Below, piece after piece: positions 2,906 to 24,729 of a stretch of 29,250 bases of DNA; the first letter of the stretch is position 1, and each line of letters starts with the position of its first letter. The DNA is taken from positions 1-29,250 of the IMG/VR virus record IMGVR_UViG_3300023176_000862. One strand, written 5' to 3'. The translations under genes were made by a program, and so were the position numbers. This stretch comes from a virus. The notes under the pieces are model-generated. The model saw only the letters and a list, made by a program, of their open reading frames with translations, searched no databases and was not told where the DNA came from.

Positions 2906-4464
2906 TGGCTGACTTAACTAAACGTGCGTACAGCAAAACAGAGTATACAGATGAACAATTACTTGAATTTAGTAAATGTATAGATGATCCTTATTATTTT
3001 CTAAATGAATACTTTACAATTCAACACCCTACAAAGGGTAGTATGATATACAAAGCATATAATTATCAGGATGAACTTGTAAACTCTTATCACAATTATA
3101 GATATTCTATATCAATGCTCGGCAGGCAAATGGGTAAATCTACTACAGCTGCCGGGTATTTGCTGTGGTACGGTATGTTTATTCCAGACCAAACTATTCT
3201 TATAGCAGCACATAAGTATTCTGGTGCACAAGAAATTATGCACCGTATTAGATATGCGTATGAAATGTGTCCTGACCACATACGCTGTGGTGTCACATCA
3301 TATAACAAAGGTTCAATTGATTTTGATAATGGTTCTCGTATCATTGCTCAAGCTACAACAGAAAACACAGGTCGTGGTCTTTCTATCTCACTGTTATATG
3401 CAGATGAATTTGCATTCGTTAGACCTACTATTGCGAAAGAATTCTGGACTTCAATCTCTCCTACACTTGCTACAGGTGGTAAAGCGATTATCACAAGTAC
3501 GCCTAACTTAGATGATGACCAGTTTGCTCTTATCTGGCAAGGCGCAAACAAAAAGATAGATGAATATGGTAACGAAACAGAAGTGGGTGTTAACGGCTTT
3601 AGACCATATATGGCTATATGGAGTGAACATCCAGACCGTGATGATAAATGGGCAGGCGAAGAACGTGGTAGAGTTGGAGCAGAACGATTTATGCGAGAGC
3701 ATGAATGTAAGTTCGTAGCATTTGACGAAACACTAGTAGACAGTATAAAACTTTCACAGTTAAAAGGAAAAGAACCACAGCAAAAAACTGGGCAGATAAG
3801 ATGGTATGAACCTATTAAAAAGGATTCTACTTATGTTGTAGGTCTTGATCCTGCTATGGGTACAGGTGGTGATAACGCAGCGATAGAAGTTTGGAGCCTA
3901 CCAGAGCTTAAGCAAGTCGCAGAATGGCAGCATAATAAAACAGATATACGTGGACAAGTTAGAATATTAAATGAAATTTTACATGTAATTAAAGATGAGC
4001 AATTAGAACTTGGTAATAGGCAACCAGAACTATATTGGTCAGTTGAAAACAATACACTAGGAGAAGCAGCACTTATCGTTATTGATGAAATGGATGAAGA
4101 TAAGTTCCCAGGTGAGTTTTTACATGAACCAAAGAAACGTGGAGTACAACGTTCTATTCGTAAAGGTTTCACAACTACATATAAGACAAAGATTACAGCA
4201 TGTATGAAGTTGAAGTCTTGGATTGAAAGCGACAAAATGCATCCACTTAGTAAAAACTTGATACGAGAGTTGAAAACATTTGTTGCCAAAGGAAAATCAT
4301 ATGAGGCAAAATTAGGAGAAACAGACGATTTAGTTTCAGCGACACTTCTATGTGTCAGACAAATACAAGTAATTTCACGTTTTGATGAACAATATGAAAG
4401 TATATTAGGGGAAAGTTTAGATGGAGACGACTACGACTTGGATCCCTTGCCAGTTATATTTTAA
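2905..4464 (+). CDS. terL: Terminase large subunit (gp17-like): packaging ATPase and nuclease
   Basis: This 519-residue protein pumps DNA into the prohead and cuts the concatemer. The ATPase half shows Walker A GRQMGKST (73-80), a Walker B LLYADE (163-168) with catalytic Glu, and a coupling motif TSTPN (198-201). The RNase H-like nuclease half shows the expected acidic residues: D315 in VVGLDPAMGTGGDNAA, E381 in WSVENN, and D474/D475 in GETDDLVSATLL. The length is a little below T4 gp17 (610) but all motifs are intact. The start overlaps the upstream stop by one base, which supports coupling to the putative small subunit. This is one of the most secure calls in the window. Confidence 0.96.
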   Translation: MADLTKRAYSKTEYTDEQLLEFSKCIDDPYYFLNEYFTIQHPTKGSMIYKAYNYQDELVNSYHNYRYSISMLGRQMGKSTTAAGYLLWYGMFIPDQTILIAAHKYSGAQEIMHRIRYAYEMCPDHIRCGVTSYNKGSIDFDNGSRIIAQATTENTGRGLSISLLYADEFAFVRPTIAKEFWTSISPTLATGGKAIITSTPNLDDDQFALIWQGANKKIDEYGNETEVGVNGFRPYMAIWSEHPDRDDKWAGEERGRVGAERFMREHECKFVAFDETLVDSIKLSQLKGKEPQQKTGQIRWYEPIKKDSTYVVGLDPAMGTGGDNAAIEVWSLPELKQVAEWQHNKTDIRGQVRILNEILHVIKDEQLELGNRQPELYWSVENNTLGEAALIVIDEMDEDKFPGEFLHEPKKRGVQRSIRKGFTTTYKTKITACMKLKSWIESDKMHPLSKNLIRELKTFVAKGKSYEAKLGETDDLVSATLLCVRQIQVISRFDEQYESILGESLDGDDYDLDPLPVIF

Positions 4465-13366: not shown

Positions 13367-13408
13367 TTGACAGTAATAGCGAATCACTATATAGTAATTA
13401 TGTAATCA
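13367..13408 (+). promoter_or_regulatory. Early cassette promoter with GAATC and GTAATCA elements (2)
   Basis: TTGACA (13367-13372), 17-nt spacer with GAATC (13381-13385), TATAGT (13390-13395), GTAATCA (13402-13408), then AAAAGGA and ATG at 13427. Confidence 0.8.
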
Positions 13409-13426
13409 AGAGAAAAGGACTATCAC

Positions 13427-13861
13427 ATGGCTTATATTTCTACTAACGAAGTTAAAGAAATTCGTAAAGCACTAAAAGAAAAGTTTGGTAAGAATATCAA
13501 ATTTGGTGTTCGTCGGGATAACTATAGTTCTGTTATTATCACGCTTAAAGAAGGCGTCATTGACTTTTATGATGGTTCTATGGATAGCATTGACAAGTAT
13601 GACGGGCGGGTGCGTAAGTTCACAGGTCATGAGCAAATCAATCAGTATCATACTCATTTCTATGGTGAGCATGAAAATCTTTTCAATGATATTGTAGAAA
13701 TTGTAAAGTCTGCTCCTGCTAAGGCAGAAGGTGGCCGTGCTTGGTATAACAATAGCGATGCTCAGATTGACTACTTTGATACAGCATTTTATATGAGTAT
13801 CAATGTTGGTTACTGGGATAAACCCTATATCTGTACAAATAAACAAAAGGCAGCAGCATAA
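13427..13861 (+). CDS. LPD29-like small protein
   Basis: This 144-residue protein opens with YISTNEVKEIRKALKEKFGKNIKFGVRRDNYSSVIITLKEGVIDF. That resembles the 'large polyvalent protein-associated domain 29' type: a helix that ends in K-F, then a beta-strand with 'V-x-x-x-x-Y-S-x-V-I-I'. The middle has KFTGHEQINQYHTHFYG, and the C-terminus has DYFDTAFYMSINVGYWDKPY. The function of this domain class is not established; it often occurs in phage and plasmid proteins transferred early in infection. It has its own promoter, and its stop overlaps the next start (TAATG), forming a small early operon with three more tiny genes. Confidence 0.7.
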   Translation: MAYISTNEVKEIRKALKEKFGKNIKFGVRRDNYSSVIITLKEGVIDFYDGSMDSIDKYDGRVRKFTGHEQINQYHTHFYGEHENLFNDIVEIVKSAPAKAEGGRAWYNNSDAQIDYFDTAFYMSINVGYWDKPYICTNKQKAAA

Positions 13862-14152: not shown

Positions 14153-14395
14153 ATGAAATTAGAATCAGCAATTGATGCTGGAATTCCAGTGTATGTAGTT
14201 TATAAATTGGATACTAAAGAAATTGTAGATTGGTATTCGTTCGGTCAAAAATTGGCAGAAAATGCTGCCGAGTCACGTAATAATAAGTTTGGTCCAGAAA
14301 CACATGATTTCGCAGAGTGGAAATCATATGTACATATTCGTGACCAACATGAAAAGCATTTAGCACAGTTAGAAGAAATAGAAAGGCGATTGTAA
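14153..14395 (+). CDS. Small protein (80 aa), unknown
   Basis: This 80-residue protein begins with a short beta-hairpin-like region (GIPVYVVYKLDTKEIVDWYSFGQKLAENAAE), followed by a charged helix (HIRDQHEKHLAQLEEIERRL). There is no recognised family. It is the last gene of the small early operon that begins at 13427. The next early promoter starts 3 bases after its stop, so each unit is packed head-to-tail with no spacer. Confidence 0.75.
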   Translation: MKLESAIDAGIPVYVVYKLDTKEIVDWYSFGQKLAENAAESRNNKFGPETHDFAEWKSYVHIRDQHEKHLAQLEEIERRL

Positions 14396-14398
14396 AAC

Positions 14399-14440
14399 TT
14401 GACAAATATAACGAATCGCTTTATAGTATAAATGTAATCA
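14399..14440 (+). promoter_or_regulatory. Early cassette promoter with GAATC and GTAATCA elements (3)
   Basis: TTGACA (14399-14404), 17-nt spacer with GAATC (14413-14417), TATAGT (14422-14427), GTAATCA (14434-14440), then AGAGAGAAAGGA and ATG at 14458. Confidence 0.8.
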
Positions 14441-14457
14441 AGAGAGAAAGGAAGATT

Positions 14458-15432
14458 ATGTCTATAGTTCAAATCACTTCAGGTTTTTATCGCAATCAAG
14501 AAATTGCAGGTATCTTTCCTGTTGTACAAGAAATAAAAGAAGCAAAAGACGGTTCAACATTTATTACAGTTGACGGTTCTGAAACTGAGTTTGGTCGTGC
14601 TAAGATGCGTATCAAAGTAAAGCCTGAGGATGTTGAGGTTGTTTGTGAACATGACGAAACAGATGAACAAGTAATGAATCGCATTGCTGAACGTTTCGAC
14701 ATTCTTGATGAAATGACTGCTGCTACACTTGACGGTATCGTGCGTGGCATGGTTGTCTCAGGACCTCCTGGTGTCGGTAAGACATATGGCATTGAACAAG
14801 TCATTGAGAAAGATTCTCTATTTGACGTAATGGCAGAGCGTCCGCTACGTCACACATTTGTCAAAGGTACAATGTCACCGATTGGTCTATATGCTACACT
14901 GTACAAGTATTCTGACCCGAAGTCAGTTGTTGTACTTGACGATTGTGATAGCATCTTGTTCAACGAGGATGCACTAAACATTCTGAAGGCAGCACTTGAT
15001 AGCGGTAAGAAGCGTAAGATTTCTTGGAACTCTGACTCTCACTTTCTTCGCCGTGAAGGAGTTCCTGATACTTTCGAGTTCAAAGGTTCAGTTATCTTTG
15101 TGACTAACTTGAAGTTTGACAATGTGCGTTCAACTAAAATCAAGGATCACTTAGAAGCTATCATGTCTCGTTGTCACTATCTTGATTTGACAATGGACAC
15201 TACACGTGAAAAGATTTTGCGTATTAAGCAAATCGCACGTGACGGTGGTCTGTTCGATACTAAAGGACTAAGTAAAGAACAAGAGGATGAAATTGTAAAG
15301 TTCTTAGAAAATAATCAATCTAAAATGCGTGAAATCTCGCTGCGTATGGCTCAAAAACTTGCAGACTTGTGTAAGATGAACCCGACACGCTGGCAGCGTT
15401 TCGCAGAAACAACTTGTATGAAGCGGGCATAA
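14458..15432 (+). CDS. AAA+ family ATPase, role unknown
   Basis: This 324-residue single-domain AAA+ protein has Walker A GPPGVGKT (102-109), Walker B VVVLDDCD (157-164), a sensor-1 segment VIFVTN (212-217) and a conserved Arg near the end of the fold (SRCHYLDL). Residues 1-95 are a non-ATPase leader with beta-rich and charged segments. AAA+ proteins use ATP to remodel nucleic acids or proteins. In this neighbourhood a clamp-loader-like or remodelling role is conceivable, but the sequence alone does not assign one, and it lacks features that would identify gp44. It has its own early-type promoter with a strong AAAGGA site, and a distinctive terminator hairpin follows. Confidence 0.85.
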   Translation: MSIVQITSGFYRNQEIAGIFPVVQEIKEAKDGSTFITVDGSETEFGRAKMRIKVKPEDVEVVCEHDETDEQVMNRIAERFDILDEMTAATLDGIVRGMVVSGPPGVGKTYGIEQVIEKDSLFDVMAERPLRHTFVKGTMSPIGLYATLYKYSDPKSVVVLDDCDSILFNEDALNILKAALDSGKKRKISWNSDSHFLRREGVPDTFEFKGSVIFVTNLKFDNVRSTKIKDHLEAIMSRCHYLDLTMDTTREKILRIKQIARDGGLFDTKGLSKEQEDEIVKFLENNQSKMREISLRMAQKLADLCKMNPTRWQRFAETTCMKRA

Positions 15433-15446
15433 CTCGCTTCACAAGT

Positions 15447-15494
15447 AGACGGATACTGGGTCTTCTCCTTTCTCTCCCTGGTATCCGTCTTTTT
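15447..15494 (+). terminator. Terminator hairpin with all-pyrimidine loop
   Basis: AGACGGATAC (15447-15456) pairs exactly with GTATCCGTCT (15481-15490), and up to four more pairs (two wobble) extend the stem. A T-run follows. The 16-nt loop (15461-15476) is only C and T. Eleven bases of it (15466-15476) are the exact complement of 14442-14452, the ribosome binding site of the gene it terminates. Confidence 0.75.
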
Positions 15495-15537: not shown

Positions 15538-16980
15538 AAAAAGTGTACAATCGTAATCAAAGATGAAGTGAACGTAAAGTTGGAAGGACTTGATCCAGCA
15601 ACACGACGAAAGTGTTCTGATAAACTCAAGTTCTTTTTACCACATGCGTATCATATGCCTGCGTATAAACTCGGGAGATGGGATGGAACAGTTCGCTTTT
15701 GTGATGTAGGTGGTAGAACATATTTAAATCTATTAGATGATTTATTGCCTATTATCATTAGTGCGGGTTACGAGATAGATATTGATGATAAACGTGAACA
15801 CACTGCTTTAGAATTTAATGAAATAGATACTGAATTTTGGGGAGACACATGTTGGCCTAAAGGACATCCAGTTGAAGGTCAAACAATTCGTTTGCGTGAT
15901 TATCAAGTTGAAGTTATTAATAAATTTATTGAGAACCCACAATCACTACAAGAGATTGCGACAGGAGCAGGCAAAACTATTATGACTGCTACACTGTCTA
16001 AAATTGTAGAGAAGTATGGTCGCTCTATTGTTATTGTACCAAATAAGGACTTGGTTCGACAGACAGAAGAAGACTATATAAATTGTGGGTTGGACGTTGG
16101 GGTGTACTTCGGAGACCGTAAAGATATTGGTAAGACACATACTATTTGTACTTGGCAATCTCTCAATAGTCTATTGAAGAAAACTAAAAAGGGCGAAGAT
16201 AACATCATGGACTTTATCGAAGATGTTATTTGTGTTATGGTTGACGAAGTACACCAAGCGAAGGCAGACGTTTTAAAAGATTTACTTACAAGTGTATTTG
16301 CTAATGTTCCTATTCGTTGGGGATTAACAGGTACTATTCCAAAAGCAGATTATGAGTTTGCGTCACTGCGTAGTTCATTGGGTGAAGTTACCAATAGACT
16401 AGCAGCAAAAGAATTACAGGATCAAGGTGTACTTGCTAACTGCGAAGTGAATATTGTACAAACACAAGAAACTGCTGAATATACAAGTTATCAAAGTGAA
16501 CTTAAATTTTTACTAGAAGATAAAAAGCGTATGGAGTTTCTAGCAAATATGATTAAAGAAATTTCAACAACTGGTAATACTCTTGTACTAACAGGAAGAA
16601 TAAACAACGGTAAACTTTTACAAGAACTTATACCTGAAGCAGAATTTGTTCAGGGCGAAATGAAAACTAATGACAGAAAAGAAGCATACAATGAAATCAA
16701 TCAAGGAACAAATAACATTACTATTGCAACCTATGGAGTTGCGGCTGTCGGTATTAACATTCCTCGTATATTTAATCTTGTTCTCCTGGAGCCTGGTAAA
16801 AGTTTCGTCCGTGTTATTCAGTCAATAGGACGTGGGGTTCGTATTGCTAAAGATAAAGACTTTGTACAGATTTGGGACATCACAAGTAGATGTAAGTTTA
16901 GTAAGCGTCATTTGACCGAACGTAAGAAATATTATAAAGATGCAGAATACCCATTTAACATACAGAAAGTAAATTACTAA
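15535..16980 (+). CDS. uvsW: Recombination helicase UvsW (SF2)
   Basis: This 481-residue superfamily 2 helicase would unwind branched and R-loop structures during the switch to recombination-dependent replication. Motifs in order: N-terminal substrate-recognition region with YKLGRWDGTVRF (44-55), Q-like RDYQ (121-124), Walker A ATGAGKT (142-148), motif II DEVH (237-240), motif III LTGT (264-267), motif IV-V segment LVLTGR and ATYGVAAVGIN, and motif VI QSIGRGVR. Length is close to T4 UvsW (about 500). The start at 15535 has no Shine-Dalgarno and lies at the predicted transcription start. The stop overlaps the next start (TAATG), opening a long run of coupled genes. Confidence 0.94.
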   Translation: MKKCTIVIKDEVNVKLEGLDPATRRKCSDKLKFFLPHAYHMPAYKLGRWDGTVRFCDVGGRTYLNLLDDLLPIIISAGYEIDIDDKREHTALEFNEIDTEFWGDTCWPKGHPVEGQTIRLRDYQVEVINKFIENPQSLQEIATGAGKTIMTATLSKIVEKYGRSIVIVPNKDLVRQTEEDYINCGLDVGVYFGDRKDIGKTHTICTWQSLNSLLKKTKKGEDNIMDFIEDVICVMVDEVHQAKADVLKDLLTSVFANVPIRWGLTGTIPKADYEFASLRSSLGEVTNRLAAKELQDQGVLANCEVNIVQTQETAEYTSYQSELKFLLEDKKRMEFLANMIKEISTTGNTLVLTGRINNGKLLQELIPEAEFVQGEMKTNDRKEAYNEINQGTNNITIATYGVAAVGINIPRIFNLVLLEPGKSFVRVIQSIGRGVRIAKDKDFVQIWDITSRCKFSKRHLTERKKYYKDAEYPFNIQKVNY

Positions 16981-17480
16981 TGAAAATATTAACACCAGAA
17001 AATCGATGTTTTGAAATGAATAACTTACCTGATGAAATCGAAGATATAAGATATTGTGTGTTGGACGTTACTGACAAACAAGAACCTGATTTCTTTTTTA
17101 TTCCACTGGTTTTTATTGAAACATTTAATGCACCTAGCATCAGTTTAAGTATAGGAGAATTCAAAGTAGAAATGCCGATTGATTGGAATATTTTAATCGG
17201 TGATAGAGAAATCGGTGAACTAGAATTTATTCCACTTACAAGTATTAATGAGCGTTCATTCGATACTATATTGACAAATCCATTGGGTGGATTTACAATG
17301 GAATGGAAACCTATCAAAGTAAATAATGTATTCGCAGATGTGAAATGGTTTTTCCCTAAATTAAAATATGGTCACATTCTTGCTATACCACTTGAACATA
17401 AAGAAAAACCAAGATGTGCGTATTTTGTAAAAGATTTAAATCGTATACCAGATGTATTAAGTAGTTATGAGTTCTTCTAA
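16980..17480 (+). CDS. Conserved-looking protein downstream of uvsW, unknown function
   Basis: This 166-residue protein is beta-rich with clusters of aromatic and proline residues (MPIDWNILIGD, GELEFIPLTSINERSF, NPLGGFTMEWKPI, DVKWFFPKLKYGHILAIPL). I recall similar proteins next to uvsW in marine T4-like phages but know no function. No catalytic motif is visible. It is joined on both sides by TAATG overlaps, to uvsW before and to the next small gene after, so it is expected to be made with the replication set. Confidence is high that it is a gene and low on function. Confidence 0.85.
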   Translation: MKILTPENRCFEMNNLPDEIEDIRYCVLDVTDKQEPDFFFIPLVFIETFNAPSISLSIGEFKVEMPIDWNILIGDREIGELEFIPLTSINERSFDTILTNPLGGFTMEWKPIKVNNVFADVKWFFPKLKYGHILAIPLEHKEKPRCAYFVKDLNRIPDVLSSYEFF

Positions 17481-21796: not shown

Positions 21797-21837
21797 TTGA
21801 CAATATAGCGAATCGTGTTATCTTTATTATGTAATCA
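21797..21837 (+). promoter_or_regulatory. Early cassette promoter with GAATC and GTAATCA elements (4)
   Basis: TTGACA (21797-21802), 16-nt spacer with GAATC (21810-21814) and ending TGT, TATCTT (21819-21824), GTAATCA (21831-21837), then AAGGA and ATG at 21856. Confidence 0.78.
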
Positions 21838-21855
21838 TTAATAAGGATAACAAAA

Positions 21856-22164
21856 ATGCTAGACAATCAAAAACCTGCTTACATCGTAACTGAACCTGCT
21901 CTTACATCACTTCACACTTCACAAATTTTAACACTACAAGAATACTATGACGCACAGTGTGTGTGGGGAGAGTATGCATTTAATGTAGATGCATACAGCG
22001 AAAAACTGTATTCAAAACTGTTCAATGAATATGTAATGAGTGATGAATTCATGAAACGTGACTTTGTAAATGAGCGTATGAATCAACCTGACTATATTAA
22101 AGCACATAAAAAATTCTACGAACAAATGATGCAACGTGAAGATAATTGGTATGAAATGTCTTGA
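21856..22164 (+). CDS. Small early protein, unknown function
   Basis: This 102-residue protein is polar, helical and aromatic-rich (LQEYYDAQCVWGEYAFNVDAYSEKLYSKLFNEYVMSDEFMKRDF...KFYEQMMQREDNWYEM). No motif is recognised. It is a self-contained cassette: an early-type promoter with the shared leader immediately upstream, and its TGA (22162-22164) lies inside the -35 box of the next promoter. Such one-gene, one-promoter units in phages often encode host-takeover proteins; that function is inferred only from context. Confidence 0.8.
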   Translation: MLDNQKPAYIVTEPALTSLHTSQILTLQEYYDAQCVWGEYAFNVDAYSEKLYSKLFNEYVMSDEFMKRDFVNERMNQPDYIKAHKKFYEQMMQREDNWYEMS

Positions 22165-22200
22165 CACATTAGAGAATCGTGTTATGTTAATATGTAATCA
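22161..22200 (+). promoter_or_regulatory. Early cassette promoter with GAATC and GTAATCA elements (5)
   Basis: TTGACA (22161-22166), 16-nt spacer with GAATC (22174-22178) and ending TGT, TATGTT (22183-22188), GTAATCA (22194-22200), then GAGGA and ATG at 22218. The -35 contains the stop of the preceding gene. Confidence 0.78.
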
Positions 22201-22217
22201 AAAATGAGGATAATGTT

Positions 22218-22502
22218 ATGATTCTATGCTATCAAGATAACGAAGTTCGTCGTTCAACGAAACCTTTTTACGCAGAAGACTATAATGCTAATCATATGAT
22301 TTGTAAGCACTTAGAAAACTATTTCTTCTTAAAATTCATCCTGATGAAAAGTGATGATATTGTAGAGAAACATCGTGCATCTAAAGAGTTAGACATCTGT
22401 GAGCGTAAGATGAATTATTGGAAACGTCAGAAAAACTTTTGTCAGAAACAATACGAAAAAGACATCAAAATTTGGAGTGAAACATATCAAGTAAATTCTT
22501 GA
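22218..22502 (+). CDS. Small early protein, unknown function
   Basis: This 94-residue protein is basic and helical: NHMICKHLENYFFLKFILMKSDDIVEKHRASKELDICERKMNYWKRQKNFCQKQYEKDIKIWSETY. The C-terminal half looks like a single charged coiled-coil helix. Four Cys residues are present but not in a zinc pattern. It is again a one-gene cassette with its own promoter, and its stop TGA (22500-22502) is again embedded in the next TTGACA. No family is recognised; an early host-interacting role is an inference from the cassette type. Confidence 0.8.
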   Translation: MILCYQDNEVRRSTKPFYAEDYNANHMICKHLENYFFLKFILMKSDDIVEKHRASKELDICERKMNYWKRQKNFCQKQYEKDIKIWSETYQVNS

Positions 22503-23192: not shown

Positions 23193-24079
23193 TGAACTAT
23201 AACTTACTATGCGGAGATAATGTCGAACTACTAAAAGACATCAAAGAAAACTCAGTTGATTTAGTTGTAACTGATCCTCCGTATGGTATGGATATCGCAG
23301 GTGTTGGGTGGGATAAAGATGTCCCGCCTGATACTACTTGGGAAGAAGTGTTACGTGTTCTTAAACCCGGTGGATGGGCATTAAGTTTTTGTTCACCTGA
23401 GTTGTATCATCGTATGGCGTGTAAAATGGAAGACGGTGGTTTTGATATTAAAGACCAAGTTATATGGATGATTACAACTAAGATGGCTAAAGCAAATAAA
23501 CTAAAGCCAGCACACGAACCTATTGCTGTAGCACAAAAGCCTATTAGTGAGAAAACAATTAAAGCGAATATAGAACGTTGGGGAACAGGTACAATCAATA
23601 TTGATGATAATCGTGTTCCTTGGGAGGGCAAGCCACCGACTGGTTGGGTAAGCGGTGGTGCCAAACGCAGAGCATTCGGTAGTGATGTTACTAAGTCAAC
23701 AGAACAAGAAACTGAGCGTGTAAACGCAAATCCAGATGGTCGTTATCCAAGCAATATAGTAGGACACTTTGACATAGCAGAACATCAAAAGTATTTCTAT
23801 GCTCCTCGTGTCACACGTAAAGAGCGTGGTGAATATAATACACATCCTACACCAAAGCCTATTGACTTGATGCGTTGGTTGATTAATGTATACGCACCTG
23901 GACCAAACTCGGTAGTTCTTGATCCGTTTAATGGTAGTGGTAGTACTGGTATTGCGGCACTACGTTTAGGTCACTCGTATATCGGTATGGACTTGACACA
24001 AGAATATATTGATATCAGTGAACGCCGTATTAAAGATATGGTAGATGATGTAGAAGAAGATATTTTCGATTTTTCTTGA
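23192..24079 (+). CDS. Beta-class DNA adenine/cytosine-N4 methyltransferase
   Basis: This 295-residue enzyme has motif IV DPPYG (28-32) near the N-terminus and the SAM motif I VLDPFNGSGSTG (242-253) near the C-terminus, with HPTPKP (218-223) and GMDLTQEYIDIS between and after. That order defines the beta group, the same group as M.HinfI and CcrM. The middle (130-215) with DDNRVPW, GRYPSNIV and FYAPRVTRKER is the probable target-recognition region. DPPY favours N6-adenine. The recognition site is unknown. It overlaps the nuclease gene and is followed directly by an early-type promoter whose -35 contains its stop codon. Confidence 0.9.
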   Translation: MNYNLLCGDNVELLKDIKENSVDLVVTDPPYGMDIAGVGWDKDVPPDTTWEEVLRVLKPGGWALSFCSPELYHRMACKMEDGGFDIKDQVIWMITTKMAKANKLKPAHEPIAVAQKPISEKTIKANIERWGTGTINIDDNRVPWEGKPPTGWVSGGAKRRAFGSDVTKSTEQETERVNANPDGRYPSNIVGHFDIAEHQKYFYAPRVTRKERGEYNTHPTPKPIDLMRWLINVYAPGPNSVVLDPFNGSGSTGIAALRLGHSYIGMDLTQEYIDISERRIKDMVDDVEEDIFDFS

Positions 24080-24117
24080 CAGATATAGCGAATCACACTA
24101 TATTATATATGTAATCA
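24076..24117 (+). promoter_or_regulatory. Early cassette promoter with GAATC and GTAATCA elements (6)
   Basis: TTGACA (24076-24081), 17-nt spacer with GAATC (24090-24094), TATATT (24099-24104), GTAATCA (24111-24117), then AAAGGAAAGG and ATG at 24136. The -35 contains the stop of the methyltransferase gene. Confidence 0.8.
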
Positions 24118-24135
24118 AAGGAAAGGTTTACGCAA

Positions 24136-24729
24136 ATGGAACAGAAAACTACGTTTGCTATATTTAAAAATGAAAAACTGAAACTCTTTCACATTTGGAA
24201 CACTAAACAAGAAAATCCAGAAGTAAACGTCAATGTGGTAAATGCTTTTTCAAAAGCATCTTACGCCTTATCCGGTAAGGACGCAGGACAATGTGCAGCG
24301 ACAACTTCTTTTTTACGTGTAATATCAAGTACAAAAAAAGAAGATTGGGATGTAGAGTATGTTGAACTTGGTGTCGTAGATAAAAATATTGTTCGTACAG
24401 AGTATGAACAATGGATTCAAGTTTTGACAGAATTGGGATACATTTGTATCACTCGGGACCCTAAAGTTCGTATTCAGTCGGGTAAGTATGCAGGTCGCAA
24501 ATGGAAAGCGACAATCATACAAAATCTATCAACGCAAAAAGTAATCAAGCATGTTGAAAATATGATGAAAGATTGCTTTGTAAAAGATGATATAATAAAA
24601 TCTGATGCATCTTCTATAGGTTTTGGTGCTGTTTACGGTAAACTATCAAATGATGTAAAAAATATTAGTGAACTTTGGTCGTATGTTTTTAATCAATATT
24701 CAGAATATGCAGATAAAGACGTAGCATAG
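24136..24729 (+). CDS. Early-type protein, unknown function
   Basis: This 197-residue protein has a beta-rich N-terminus (TTFAIFKNEKLKLFHIWN), a central mixed region (SFLRVISSTKKEDWDVEYVELGVVDKNIVRTEYEQWIQVLTELGYICITRDPKVRIQSGKYAGRKWKATIIQNLS), and a helical C-terminus (KHVENMMKDCF...ISELWSYVFNQYSEYADKDVA). No catalytic motif or family is recognised. It has its own promoter with the shared leader, and lies between the methyltransferase and the leaderless primase. Whether it relates to the nuclease-methyltransferase pair is unknown. Confidence 0.8.
   Translation: MEQKTTFAIFKNEKLKLFHIWNTKQENPEVNVNVVNAFSKASYALSGKDAGQCAATTSFLRVISSTKKEDWDVEYVELGVVDKNIVRTEYEQWIQVLTELGYICITRDPKVRIQSGKYAGRKWKATIIQNLSTQKVIKHVENMMKDCFVKDDIIKSDASSIGFGAVYGKLSNDVKNISELWSYVFNQYSEYADKDVA

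Follow-up and report, generated by a model that had tools for sequence, protein, structure and literature searches.

In phage lambda, the int gene is subject to retroregulation by sib, in which RNase III processes a 3' hairpin downstream of the gene. In S. aureus, the 3' UTR of icaR carries an anti-Shine-Dalgarno motif, UCCCCUG, that complements the ribosome site of its own mRNA, and this pairing has been shown to block initiation and to allow RNase III cleavage (PMC3868564). A review gives the motif as absent in the near relative S. epidermidis, and describes a 14-nt interaction that joins both ends of the B. subtilis hbs mRNA and protects it from RNase Y (PMC7821165). OppZ and CarZ of V. cholerae are sRNAs derived from 3' UTRs that exert negative autoregulation on their own transcript; OppZ is released by RNase E and acts with Hfq in trans and not through contact between distant parts of one mRNA (PMC7398697).

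We describe here an early AAA+ ATPase gene, present in many uncultured phages, in which the 3' end of the mRNA is often complementary to its own leader, and in which this complementarity has been maintained through changes on both sides. As in icaR, a 3' motif complements the Shine-Dalgarno region of the same mRNA; however, icaR has a long bacterial 3' UTR, whereas the phage 3' end is short, holds the motif mostly in or beside the terminator, and is known from sequence alone. The icaR motif is not kept in S. epidermidis, whereas the phage pairing is kept by covariation across lineages. As with OppZ and CarZ, an element behind the stop codon complements a leader of its own transcript, but OppZ targets oppB inside an operon, and the phage element would target the promoter-proximal leader. 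With hbs the phage case shares complementary ends of one mRNA, although the hbs pairing is described as protecting the mRNA, not as masking the ribosome site; with lambda int/sib it would share control of a gene by an element downstream, but sib does not pair with the leader. The putative phage system is laid out like icaR and OppZ but is not assigned to either, the likeness being one of complementarity layout. While icaR, hbs and OppZ/CarZ are single cases, comparative sequence data show the end pairing here to be kept by selection across large sequence distances in phages, and both partners and the anatomy turn over repeatedly while complementarity persists. A title-level literature search, covering few subscription journals, found no prior report on the 3' end of phrog_1250 genes.

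The AAA+ gene and its terminator loop in the window

The window, i.e. the whole stretch of 29,250 bases that was analysed, is a tailed-phage genome fragment in which profile searches found terminase, gp32-like and RecA-like genes; it also encodes the two subunits of ribonucleotide reductase, as well as a DNA helicase that we take to be UvsW-like. The nearest cultured phages by terminase in the phage collection are PA5oct and its relatives (57%), and the IMG/VR contigs that carry relatives of the AAA+ gene reach 342 kb (best 80 of 96 stretches). The T4 homologue of the gene is labelled phrog 1250, and the family is named nrdC.10 in Ac42 and Acj9. Promoters resembling that of the window's AAA+ gene (Table 1) stand upstream of the gene in many relatives, and since the promoter-like site in the window ends at 14427, the leader is probably only about 24 nt long.

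Table 1. Positions of the features discussed, in window coordinates unless a locus is named.
Feature	Position	Strand	Basis
AAA+ ATPase gene, 324 aa, phrog_1250 (T4 nrdC.10 family)	14458-15432	+	PHROG E 4e-92; Pfam AAA
Sigma-70-like early promoter of the AAA+ gene, TTGACA-17-TATAGT	14399-14427	+	consensus scan, 11/12
Predicted short 5' leader, about 24 nt	14434-14457	+	promoter position, assuming that the RNA begins 7 nt past the -10 hexamer
Leader site GAGAGAAAGGA around the Shine-Dalgarno sequence	14442-14452	+	complements terminator loop; covaries in relatives
Intrinsic terminator hairpin, 14 pairs (two G-U), 16-nt loop	15447-15490	+	sequence and folding
Hairpin arms	15447-15460 and 15477-15490	+	sequence
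All-pyrimidine terminator loop TCTTCTCCTTTCTCTC, 16 nt, all C/T	15461-15476	+	sequence
Anti-leader element TCCTTTCTCTC in the loop	15466-15476	+	exact reverse complement of GAGAGAAAGGA
Terminator U-run, TTTTT	15490-15494	+	sequence
Early gene with LPD29 domain	13427-13861		domain search
Shared early-promoter arrangement	13367-13433, 14399-14457, 21797-21858, 22161-22220, 24076-24138		promoter scan of window
Extra ORFs between AAA+ gene and terminator, mutually different	L198 about 2826-2972; L208 about 4028-4420; L322:4052-4498		

The hairpin behind the gene has the stable G+C-containing stem directly before a U-run that is expected of an intrinsic terminator (predicted -20.8 kcal/mol, z -5.0; none of 200 shuffles equally stable), and its 16-nt loop departs from the usual but not essential short loop, which concerns the typical form and not the function. 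Among 145 distinct terminator-like hairpins in the loci, loops measure 3-8 nt in 113 and at least 9 nt in 32, and 18 of the latter 32 belong to AAA+ 3' ends. The original prediction, that this loop consists of C and T throughout and that 11 of its bases are the exact complement of the AAA+ ribosome site, proved correct in both coordinates and sequences when the record was searched on both strands; GAGAGAAAGGA occurs once per strand in the 29,250-base record and nowhere else, its leader copy lying at -16 to -6 relative to the start codon. The best duplex partner of the loop among 40 window gene starts is the AAA+ leader (-18.1 kcal/mol; runner-up -12.6), and Rfam covariance models gave no match above the gathering score in the window. 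When the letters of the loop were shuffled, a match of at least 11 nt arose in 1.8% of 10,000 trials. The window case alone is therefore only suggestive, and it is the comparative evidence from relatives that marks the match as more than chance.

Complementarity persists while both partners change

We searched IMG/VR with five proteins from different clades (best 80 of 96, 173, 113 and 262 stretches, and all 72; one more search, all 22 stretches, postdates the set used here). Of 348 loci with a hit, 309 were kept, and 39 were dropped because the gene was incomplete or the 3' flank shorter than 60 nt; the 309, among which the same contig often recurs, were reduced to 114 distinct leader/3'-end pairs. 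The ingroup consists of 58 of these, with a protein identity of 60% or more and a best query other than L063, and the other 56 are the distant relatives. Both the group labels and the leader window, from -24 to +3, were picked after the pattern had been seen, and control genes were given the same leader window.

A 3'-terminal anti-leader element was assigned, by a reader's judgement of the matches and not by a program threshold, in 40 of the 58 ingroup relatives (3 each in clades A, B, C and E, 12 in D, 14 in F, and L208 and L322). At least 7 exact bases match at the element in 30 of these; the other ten (L051, L054, L198, L208, L308, L318, L319, L322, L324 and L327) show bulged or mismatched pairing or carry the element behind an extra gene, and the match in L308, of 6 exact nt (P 0.2), is a weak one. 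L029, with an 11-12-nt match, was left uncounted because its AAA+ frame is broken; the break lies near the start (L029:628-1530, 39-codon frame) and reflects either an assembly error or real damage. The matched leader sequence differs between clades: GAGAGAAAGGA in A (11 nt exact), GAGAAAGAGA (10 nt) or, in L016, AGAGAATCA (9 nt) in B, AGGAGTGAGA (10 nt) or GGAGTGAGA (9 nt) in C, GAGTGAGA (8 nt, at the Shine-Dalgarno sequence and/or codons 1-4) in D, AATGGGAG (8 nt; L309, L314) in E, and up to GAGGGTTAA (9 nt) in group F. The element lies within the terminator loop in clades A-E, and in group F, where the terminator loop is GAAA, directly 5' of the stem (TTAACCCTC, TCAACCC etc.). Between L196 and L194 an A-U pair is exchanged for a G-C pair (leader TTAA with flank TTAA versus TTGA with TCAA). 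In the tree, clade E is nested in F with strong support, suggesting that the element left the flank for the loop as the leader changed.

In L198, L208 and L322, an extra ORF separates the AAA+ gene from the terminator, and the element adjoins the terminator, downstream of the inserted gene; in L208, the leader GGG[A]GAGGTTA pairs with TAACCTCCCC over 10 bp with one bulge. The match therefore belongs to the end of the transcript and not to the AAA+ stop codon, and since the three ORFs differ, the spot seems open to insertion. The own AAA+ leader was the best duplex target of the loop among the scored starts in 13 of 14 contigs, L013 being the exception and L008 showing a tie with another start. 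In a 245,963-base contig, the only occurrences of GGAGTGAGA of clade C are one in the leader of AAA+ and one, on the opposite strand, in its terminator loop, and it is likewise confined to this pair in a 49,965-base contig.

The original prediction had also drawn attention to CTCCTTTCT in the window loop, which we take to be the 3' end of alphaproteobacterial 16S rRNA. The motif is indeed there, as well as in L037, and the loop might accordingly be read as a mimic of the 16S rRNA 3' end that competes for ribosome sites generally. However, among the clades with a loop element the motif is confined to clade A, and the loops of B, C, D and E match their own leaders without it, so that we rejected mimicry as a general explanation and consider it highly improbable.

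Eighteen of the 58 ingroup relatives show no own-leader match. Thirteen of them (L009, L012, L014, L017-L024, L049 and L246) have small-loop terminators, and the others are L058, L328, L329, L139 (doubtful start) and L013. Relatives that keep the stem and lose the loop complementarity had been named beforehand as evidence against the pairing; one type, L013, fits that description, with a large loop and only 4 nt matching its AAA+ leader. With the leader of an extra gene that has been inserted upstream, the L013 loop has 8 nt in common (AAAAGGAG), and it may target that leader instead, which is just a lead as the duplex reaches only -10.1 kcal/mol. The extra gene (L013:1233-1570) stands upstream of AAA+ under its own copy of the early promoter, and a 13-bp hairpin holds its ribosome site in a loop of 16 nt and its start codon in the stem.

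We permuted the 3' elements among the leaders. With seven types, 2 of 5040 arrangements were as good, the true one included; with five merged types, it was 1 of 120, the true arrangement; and with 12 rows that included types without a match, none of 20,000. Leaders were then swapped among single-linkage clusters, each represented by its first member, short leaders or 3' ends being dropped here and in the within-genome test. At 90, 80 and 70% identity (46, 23 and 11 clusters), the own sum was reached in none of 20,000 swaps each, and the mean longest exact match was 6.52, 6.39 and 7.27 for own against 5.24, 5.32 and 5.38 for cross pairs; clustering at 60% leaves two clusters only. Swaps gave 18/20,000 in the ingroup alone (17 clusters) and 0/20,000 in the outgroup alone (29 clusters). 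Within group F only, the result was not significant (4615/50,000), and for group F together with L208, L322 and E it was 0/50,000. Ranking within each genome controls for each phage's own Shine-Dalgarno style; here the own leader ranked strictly first in 16 of 44 clusters, where no more than 4.5 would be expected (ingroup 4/16, 1.4 expected; outgroup 12/28, 3.1 expected), 44 of the 46 clusters being used and those with fewer than four other genes or not relocatable being omitted.

In the run with control genes, AAA+ again gave 0/20,000 (45 clusters), with at least 8 nt in 14 of 45 clusters versus 3.9% of swapped pairs. The same swap test showed no effect for the helicase gene (9350/20,000; 36 clusters), the gene at 17480 (10241/20,000; 31 clusters), the gene at 16980 (8588/20,000; 18 clusters) or the LPD29 gene with its own 3' end (18880/20,000; 18 clusters), and nrdB gave 10126/20,000 with 3 clusters only. 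Pyrimidine-rich terminator loops might match purine-rich ribosome sites without any selection, as the shuffled window loop does at times; but the swaps at three cluster levels, the within-genome ranking, the control genes and the position that the element takes when genes are inserted all argue against chance, which we regard as extremely unlikely. As a further candidate line of evidence, we considered synonymous-codon constraint on AGT GAG at codons 2-3 of group D, and rejected it for want of a signal: among the conserved columns, 8 of 17 for Ser and 8 of 16 for Glu vary just as little.

At least 8 exact bases match in 12 of the 56 distant relatives, one of which, L342, is A+T-rich with a doubtful start. 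The others are L123 and L124 (AGGAGCTAAAA, 11 nt), L264 (CAACATAGCAA, 11 nt), L130 (CACTGACAAA, 10 nt), L226 and L229 (CTGTGGGAG, 9 nt), L155 (AGGAGCGTG, 9 nt), L349 (ATGAAGGAG, 9 nt), L120 and L122 (CGGAGCAA, 8 nt) and L126 (CTAGACAA, 8 nt). In the predicted folds of L123, L126 and, with two inner pairs, L155, the element occupies the loop region of a separate hairpin, whereas in L349, L120 and L130 it adjoins the stop codon. Nothing of note was seen in the leaders and 3' ends of many distant relatives, e.g. L063-L069, L067, L079, L082, L127 and L131. Two separate stretches in the 3' hairpin of L264, TTGCTATGTTG and AACTCCT, complement the leader, but their order precludes simultaneous simple-helix pairing with one leader. 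In the 15 cultured homologues, among which are T4 and KVP40, the excess is not significant (own 6.2 versus cross 5.9; 1834/20,000); one of them, PA5oct, has an 8-nt match (AGTAGCAT). Klebsiella phage LilPanda has one of 10 nt (AAACAAAACA), with the partner 75 nt past the stop codon, inside the annotated next gene.

What the end pairing may do

The original prediction held that the 3' end of the mRNA might mask its own ribosome site. Its pairing part is strongly supported by comparison, the match surviving changes on both sides in several clades, and its masking part we can so far only infer. We consider it probable, though by no means assured, that the 3' end of the AAA+ mRNA pairs with its own Shine-Dalgarno sequence or leader and masks the ribosome site, i.e. 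that the gene is autoregulated. An anti-leader element at the 3' end, as a rule within the terminator or next to it, would pair with its own leader or that of a sister transcript, so that once a transcript is finished, or a pool of transcripts has accumulated, ribosome binding would be blocked and less AAA+ protein made, which would amount to a self-contained negative feedback. Pairing in the cell, lowered translation, and action within one molecule or between molecules are all presumed. Consistent with masking, Shine-Dalgarno-like bases lie within the match in most types that have one. We judge an 11-bp helix within a 16-nt loop to be sterically tight, and L130 and L264, in which the matched stretch lies upstream of the Shine-Dalgarno sequence, fit masking less directly.

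In these two loci, the match falls on or close to the predicted 5' end, off the Shine-Dalgarno core, which is what one might expect if a real pairing mainly protected the mRNA, closing its ends against nucleases, with translation unrepressed or even favoured. The persistence of the element at the transcript's 3' end despite inserted genes, and nested folding in group F, which predicts a helix joining both ends, agree with such a role as well, for which B. subtilis hbs offers a precedent (PMC7821165). But while paired, a match over Shine-Dalgarno-like bases, as in most types, would hinder initiation, and we find protection as the main role unlikely. The folding of the mRNA ends had been proposed as a check on the pairing; end pairing is also predicted in L014 and L329, both without the element, and is not predicted in several relatives that have the loop element, so that folding alone is weak evidence and we rejected whole-mRNA folding as proof.

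The 3' end might also be released as a small RNA acting in trans on the AAA+ and other leaders, either in the manner of OppZ and CarZ or as a wider early-gene regulator. The single-stranded element of group F, directly 5' of the terminator and U-run, resembles the seed of a 3'-end sRNA, and OppZ acts in this way (PMC7398697). On the other hand, the own leader is the preferred target, and in types A-E, as in some outgroup phages, the element is part of a hairpin loop. We know of no processing site or small RNA for the AAA+ 3' end. Action as a released small RNA is a possibility that we rate as doubtful, if somewhat better placed than protection.

The suggestion that related early ribosome sites might be masked too found limited support. 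Against the AAA+ 3' end, the leader of the LPD29 gene did better than swapped leaders (88/10,000 in 32 genomes, compared with 43/10,000 for the AAA+ leader in the same genomes), and the nrdB leader was marginal (491/10,000; 16 genomes); the helicase leader (7236/10,000) and that of the gene at 14153 (4533/10,000) showed nothing, and the runner-up in the window is far weaker than the AAA+ leader. In several group F phages, the LPD29 leader is nearly identical to the AAA+ leader, with a perfect 9 nt in L055, so that it may be a second target there, a site that would also suit a small RNA acting in trans. Among 310 terminator-like sites at 130 non-redundant loci, 22 listed rows have at least 9 bases matching an upstream start; AAA+ with its own leader makes up 11 of the 22. 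The other 11, a point in favour of chance matching, comprise among others A+T-rich matches, matches in coding sequence, an LPD29 leader (L056) and an nrdB leader (L008). Given this share, we rejected the notion that terminators with long loops and long matches are a general phage habit.

Returning to masking, the element is found in a terminator loop, a terminator flank, a separate hairpin or the stop-codon region in different phages. We tentatively propose, at somewhat less than even confidence, a phage-specific rule of self-closure in which selection acts on end complementarity only, and not on sequence, position or hairpin, such that each completed AAA+ transcript silences itself. The AAA+ protein (phrog_1250, function unknown) may be one whose dose these phages need to limit; many natural leader/element pairs are available for simple reporter tests, and covarying end complementarity, instead of conserved sequence, may be a way to find other self-regulating mRNAs. 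As a separate observation, the early promoters of several window genes share TTGACA, a spacer GAATC and TGTAATCA near the expected RNA start, and similar arrangements stand 5' of the AAA+ gene in relatives.
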